A DNA stretch of 64,000 bases, from assembly GCF_018320785.1 (NCBI RefSeq), contig NC_054884.1:18849667-18913666 (forward strand), in the 5' to 3' direction. This document shows positions 18,454 to 37,622 of the stretch, in pieces; the first letter of the stretch is position 1, and each line of letters begins with the position of its first letter. The stretch comes from Cheilinus undulatus (lineage: Eukaryota; Chordata; Actinopteri; Labriformes; Labridae). Position numbers and translations under genes: made by a program. The notes below the pieces were generated by a model that did no database searches, was not told the DNA's origin, and worked only from the letters and a program-made list of their open reading frames with translations.

Positions 18454-37622
<19,169 letters not shown>

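Follow-up and report, generated by a model that had tools for sequence, protein, structure and literature searches.

Tandem R3-type receptor tyrosine phosphatase genes in Cheilinus undulatus, one with serine for the catalytic cysteine: a possible natural substrate competitor

What role, if any, is left to a receptor tyrosine phosphatase whose catalytic cysteine has been replaced by serine beside an active twin? The question is raised by a 64,000-nt stretch of the forward strand of the Cheilinus undulatus genome (GCF_018320785.1, NC_054884.1:18,849,667-18,913,666), hereafter called the window and numbered from its first letter. Positions 238-16169 of the window pair with 18626-39318 as homologous blocks which, by sequence, are a tandem duplication carrying two predicted receptor tyrosine phosphatase genes of the R3 type, copy A and copy B, both on the plus strand. 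Searches of the 1.17-Gb assembly (46 contigs) with protein and with DNA revealed no further close copy. At the protein level A and B match at 92-98% by exon and the remaining matches reach at most 58% (110/110 candidates scored); with a 161-base exon as DNA query, the hits were B (100%), A (98%) and two others at 75-77% (4/4 candidates scored). Additional copies were also absent from the 30 kb upstream.

Spliced models of both genes give open frames with no internal stop and with matching splice sites. In the model of copy B, which spans 18454..37622, exon 1 (18454..18519) holds the start codon and a sequence that by eye resembles a signal peptide. The ectodomain (22437..31587) comprises a short exon 2 (22437-22470) and eight FN3-like exons (22989 to 31587), and is followed by a transmembrane exon, recognized by eye from its long hydrophobic run (31809-31902), and by a juxtamembrane exon (31990-32040). 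The next exons (32254-32335, 32449-32539, 32688-32758 and 33069-33203) contain further juxtamembrane sequence and the beginning of the PTP domain. This domain continues in an exon reading KCEQYWP...TVRH (34864..34986), in the exon that includes the WPDHGVP loop and ends in ...VVHS(S) (35202..35362; supported by the gene model, by codon comparison and by the genome search) and in one running from ...AGVGRTG, with the P-loop Arg, to MVQTE, the Q-loop (36815..36950). The last exon (37479..37622) encodes the C-terminal tail with an NIYEN motif and the stop. Copy A, which has the catalytic Cys, extends in the window from exon 2 to the last exon (2252..14820); the homologue of B exon 1 lies in the sequence upstream, about 440 bases before the window (L009:9560-9625), and positions 121-183 of the window were dropped as the start exon of A. 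About 0.3 kb 5' of the ATG of B was duplicated along with the gene (480-base match, 93%). Roughly 0.5 kb of the first intron of A (L009:9729 to window position 237) has no match in the first intron of B at the threshold used.

A first-pass annotation of this DNA had described every exon of B as intact. This went too far, as homologous blocks and gene models agree that the FN3 exon found in A at 4553..4801 is absent from B, and exon 2 has 34 bases and a GC donor in B versus 97 bases and a GT donor in A, being thus 63 bases shorter. Both differences keep the frame. The splice sites, also called intact, do produce an open B frame, but the GC donor of exon 2 is the sole exception among modelled introns that are otherwise all GT-AG. 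Four differences between the copies rule out that the duplicate is a falsely assembled haplotype: a DDE_Tnp_4 gene stands whole next to B and only part of its 3' end adjoins A, the introns of A and B carry different insertions, B is without one FN3 exon, and the non-coding DNA has diverged by 4.0% around the PTP exons and by 6.0% in all.

The DDE_Tnp_4 gene, which we take to be HARBI1-like, occupies 38071-41178 on the minus strand, 3' of copy B, and its partial copy near 15100-15620 marks the duplicated unit. Further neighbours are a minus-strand sequence at 46786-46866, which we presume to resemble PIGP, and an exonuclease-like gene on the plus strand (47675-52930) with an RNase_T match, presumably REXO4-like.

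The catalytic codon itself was examined by comparing the two copies and by searching for alternatives. In copy B, positions 35358-35360 read TCC (Ser), within GTA GTT CAC TCC AG at the exon end and gttcgt at the start of the intron; the homologous codon of copy A (12609-12611) is TGC (Cys). The single G-to-C change that the first-pass annotation had reported is therefore real in this assembly, and turns HCSAGVGRT, as found in A, into HSSAGVGRT. In exact searches of the plus strand of the window, the exon end with CACTGCAG occurs once (12606, in A) and the one with CACTCCAG once (35355, in B); a further CACTGCAG at 4788 is inside an unrelated FN3 exon. Neither this search nor the DNA search of the genome found an alternative Cys-bearing exon for B. 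Compared with its counterpart in A, exon 35202-35362 shows three silent codons besides the Cys-to-Ser replacement. The two copies agree in WPDHGVP, the P-loop Arg and MVQTE, so that the WPD loop, P-loop Arg and Q-loop of B are intact, as had been claimed, and the nucleophile is lost. Copy B has a start exon, an open frame, splice sites, a hydrophobic transmembrane exon, an FN3 ectodomain, the WPD loop, the P-loop Arg and the Q-loop, and of these motifs the nucleophile Cys alone is changed. The Cys nucleophile in HCX5R that characterizes an active classical PTP is thus present in A and missing from B, which, with its Y_phosphatase domain kept and its catalytic Cys absent, has the sequence of a putative pseudophosphatase.

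Over the whole cytoplasmic part, 11/330 codons differ in amino acid between A and B. Six of these differences fall in the PTP domain proper (V/I, K/N, G/S, E/K, C/S, A/V); of the other five, four are among the final residues and one is close to the membrane. With six differences in the PTP domain proper, it is not very unlikely that a neutral change should hit the catalytic codon; the position of the Ser change, taken alone, proves nothing. No difference between A and B affects the 31 PTP columns that are at least 90% conserved (131 scored, the Cys column being misread at exon edges), a count that did not discriminate. The ancestral state was checked with a regular expression, extending from the WPD loop through the residue after the motif His, at 30 other loci of the same genome. 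Sixteen matched and 14 did not. Since all 16 carry Cys (15 TGC, 1 TGT), the simplest conclusion is that Ser is the derived state, in B. Unlike copy B, the five R3-like genes that were read here, whose names are our assumption, keep the Cys.

Assignment to the R3 class is based on domain content, a tree and structural matches. Pfam finds Y_phosphatase in copy B as one stretch (289.5 bits, positions 1-233 of 234), fn3 in six stretches, one Dep-1-type Fn3 barely above the cut-off (26.5 vs 26) and a second one below it. Copy B thus displays the R3 architecture of multiple FN3 domains, one transmembrane segment (by eye) and a single PTP domain. In a tree of nine paralogs, made from partial PTP columns, A and B group with the PTPRJ-like gene L032 (support 0.865), beside PTPRB-like genes; we take the paralog labels J, B, O and Q from human sequences. 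In a PDB search the top whole-chain scores belong to PTPRS/LAR chains, whose tandem domains both contribute to the score, and single-domain chains are led by the R3 members PTPRJ, PTPRB and vascular PTP 1. By these comparisons, the PTP domain of A and B groups with R3 members. An intron within HCS|AGVGR is common to A, B and the PTPRJ-like gene of the same genome. PTPRJ (DEP-1, CD148) and PTPRH (SAP-1) resemble B in their FN3 ectodomain, one transmembrane exon, single PTP domain and C-terminal tyrosine motif, and the PDB scores of A and B do not separate PTPRH from PTPRJ. Because the same genome also has a distinct PTPRJ-like gene, whose own tail is presumably PTPRJ-like as well, A and B together may be, by elimination only, the PTPRH gene of this fish. 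In the relevant passages of the sources, PTPRJ and PTPRH are sisters (R3 evolution paper, PMC5336234), and a zebrafish survey (PMC2933243) records a single ptprh in addition to ptprja and ptprjb.

To what extent has copy B been maintained? Nei-Gojobori counts between A and B, which are joint for both branches, gave 10.5 non-synonymous and 9.5 synonymous changes in the PTP exons (dN/dS 0.31), 69 and 16 in the ectodomain (dN/dS 1.39) and a dN/dS of 0.98 over all paired exons; the contrast between PTP and ectodomain has a Fisher p of 0.008-0.02, depending on rounding. Distant paralogs do not allow the changes to be assigned to A or B; the low PTP value may therefore be mostly that of A. Local non-coding divergence is 226/5694 (K 0.041), with 43 gap events. 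At this rate about 14.9 non-synonymous changes would be expected in the PTP exons on a neutral B branch alone, as compared with the approximately 10.5 seen on both branches (P 0.12-0.19; 0.046-0.08 with A at an omega of 0.15). The test is not significant at the local rate and not decisive. We rejected an intron rate inflated by two badly aligned introns (P 1e-4 to 3e-4; 0.044-0.076 with the PTP dS) and a global neutral rate raised by diverged 5' introns (P 0.002-0.005), preferring the local rate.

The absence of indels argues more strongly than substitutions for a long-kept B frame. The local non-coding gap rate predicts, for one branch, about 3.6 indels in the aligned PTP coding sequence (P0 0.028) and about 11.8 in 3117 aligned coding bases (P0 8e-6), and neither contains any; exon 2 and the FN3 exon that B lacks are not part of these counts, and the intrinsic indel rate is probably lower in exons than in introns. 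Likewise, B has no stop, whereas a neutral B branch should have gained about 3.4 at the global rate (P0 0.034). Copy B does not look like a processed or decayed pseudogene, as its introns are present and its model has no internal stop or frameshift; this, despite the many indels gained in nearby non-coding DNA, argues against a long decay. Substitution, indel and stop tests all concern the time since duplication and not the interval after the Cys was lost.

Serine in place of the catalytic Cys blocks the covalent phospho-enzyme step, and the same replacement made in the laboratory yields substrate-trapping PTPs. The analogy with such mutants, drawn in the first-pass annotation, is well founded: C1239S of the related DEP-1/PTPRJ, the equivalent change, is presented in excerpts of one paper (PMC3641115) as a trapping mutant whose complexes with FLT3 are stable and form readily. 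In the pertinent section of a cadherin study, C1239S is the catalytically inactive form of CD148 and D1205A the trap (PMC4227875). DEP-1 C1239S has the same Cys-to-Ser change in the same receptor class as B; however, it is engineered, whereas copy B is natural and has other differences from its active partner.

Cys loss in STYX and MK-STYX, and receptor pseudophosphatases such as PTPRU and PTPRN, are already known. PTPRN and PTPRN2 (IA-2), receptor family members without phosphatase activity, keep the catalytic Cys. Two mutated residues make them inactive, according to an extract of PMC11802530. PTPRU is described, in part of the original report, as a receptor PTP with no detectable activity, and competition with active relatives for substrates is its proposed role (PMC7320164); an excerpt of a review mentions that activity has also been reported, puts pseudophosphatases at about fourteen percent of the family and cites STYX and MK-STYX as natural examples without the catalytic Cys, with Ser at that place in MK-STYX (PMC8269279). 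In PTPRU the Cys is present, within a destabilised pocket, and there are two PTP domains, whereas B keeps the pocket motifs and has lost the Cys. STYX and MK-STYX are of the dual-specificity group and not FN3 receptors, and MK-STYX lacks the motif His as well. What is unusual here is a one-base catalytic loss in a full receptor adjoining its active twin. The string HSSAGVGRT is absent from the open-licence papers searched, and among the matches listed on pseudophosphatases, teleosts, tandem copies and receptor PTPs no title or opening of an abstract describes this case.

Our tentative reading, which we put somewhat short of an even chance, is that a single base change made copy B, a duplicated receptor of the PTPRJ/PTPRH kind, into a full-length pseudophosphatase, and that copy B serves as a natural substrate competitor. 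The B protein would be made, would be unable to form the phospho-cysteine intermediate and would presumably still bind phosphotyrosine substrates, thereby shielding sites that A would otherwise dephosphorylate; alternatively, it might dilute A at shared ligands or dimers. That B would hold substrates of A is suggested by analogy with DEP-1 C1239S and PTPRU, and B could then do in nature what the C/S trap does in the laboratory. It is doubtful that B should be all of a fixed, expressed natural substrate trap maintained by selection, with the A:B ratio setting signal strength. Were B fixed and expressed, it would amount to a naturally occurring form of the standard substrate-trapping mutant, as a full-length receptor beside its active twin, in which the step from active enzyme to binding-only competitor could be traced across a single catalytic change; many pseudophosphatases probably differ from active relatives at several sites, hiding what came first.

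The competitor reading must be weighed against a simpler history, in which B worked as a duplicate through most of its existence, the Ser codon being a fresh null, the first step of decay, with no role. We consider this a serious contender, though somewhat the less probable. The PTP substitution test cannot tell it from maintained function, dN/dS values of about 1.4 (ectodomain) and 0.98 (all paired exons) are compatible with relaxation, and one FN3 exon is gone; yet the frame of B bears no stop or frameshift, and the three silent A/B changes in the same exon indicate that the lineage is not brand-new, although they do not date the Ser change itself. The non-significant PTP test and the whole-gene ratio leave room both for such a recent inactivation and for a segregating allele.

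That other individuals have TGC at the B site, the Ser codon being an allele or an assembly error, appears unlikely. The sequence is from a single assembly, in which the genome search detected no second haplotype of the exon; but neighbouring silent and intronic differences place the site in a stretch that is clearly B, which speaks against a collapse of A and B, and a random base error at exactly that site is improbable. Unlikelier still is that B acts as a receptor or scaffold independent of catalysis, through its ectodomain, membrane contacts and the NIYEN tyrosine, with phosphotyrosine binding by the dead pocket being irrelevant. Both NIYEN and the transmembrane exon are kept, and catalysis-independent tumour suppression is claimed for PTPRK in one paper (PMC11298714); the pocket motifs, however, are kept too, which a scaffold would not require. 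Altogether, a natural competitor would be the best single explanation, ahead of recent loss, of an allele or error and of a catalysis-independent role.

The ectodomains had been described as near-identical, an overstatement given that 60/677 aligned codons differ in addition to the FN3 exon missing from B. This drift makes it uncertain that A and B share ligands, plausible though this is. In the FN3 exon at 4963-5220 (A) and 24734-24991 (B), 11 codons changed the amino acid and two are silent, with several Ser or Pro residues of A being Leu in B; the cause may be a binding surface that evolves fast, or else relaxation. The FN3 exon at 4019-4279 (A) and 24143-24403 (B) has 0/261 differences, amid 1-kb non-coding bins diverged by some 4-5%, and its identity suggests recent gene conversion. 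The first two FN3 exons (2864-3824 in A, 22989-23949 in B) are closer within a copy (A1-A2 6 differences, B1-B2 4) than across copies (A1-B1 14, A2-B2 12), and the third shows within-copy closeness only in A (A2-A3 7). Such closeness suggests that the exons within each gene have changed in concert.
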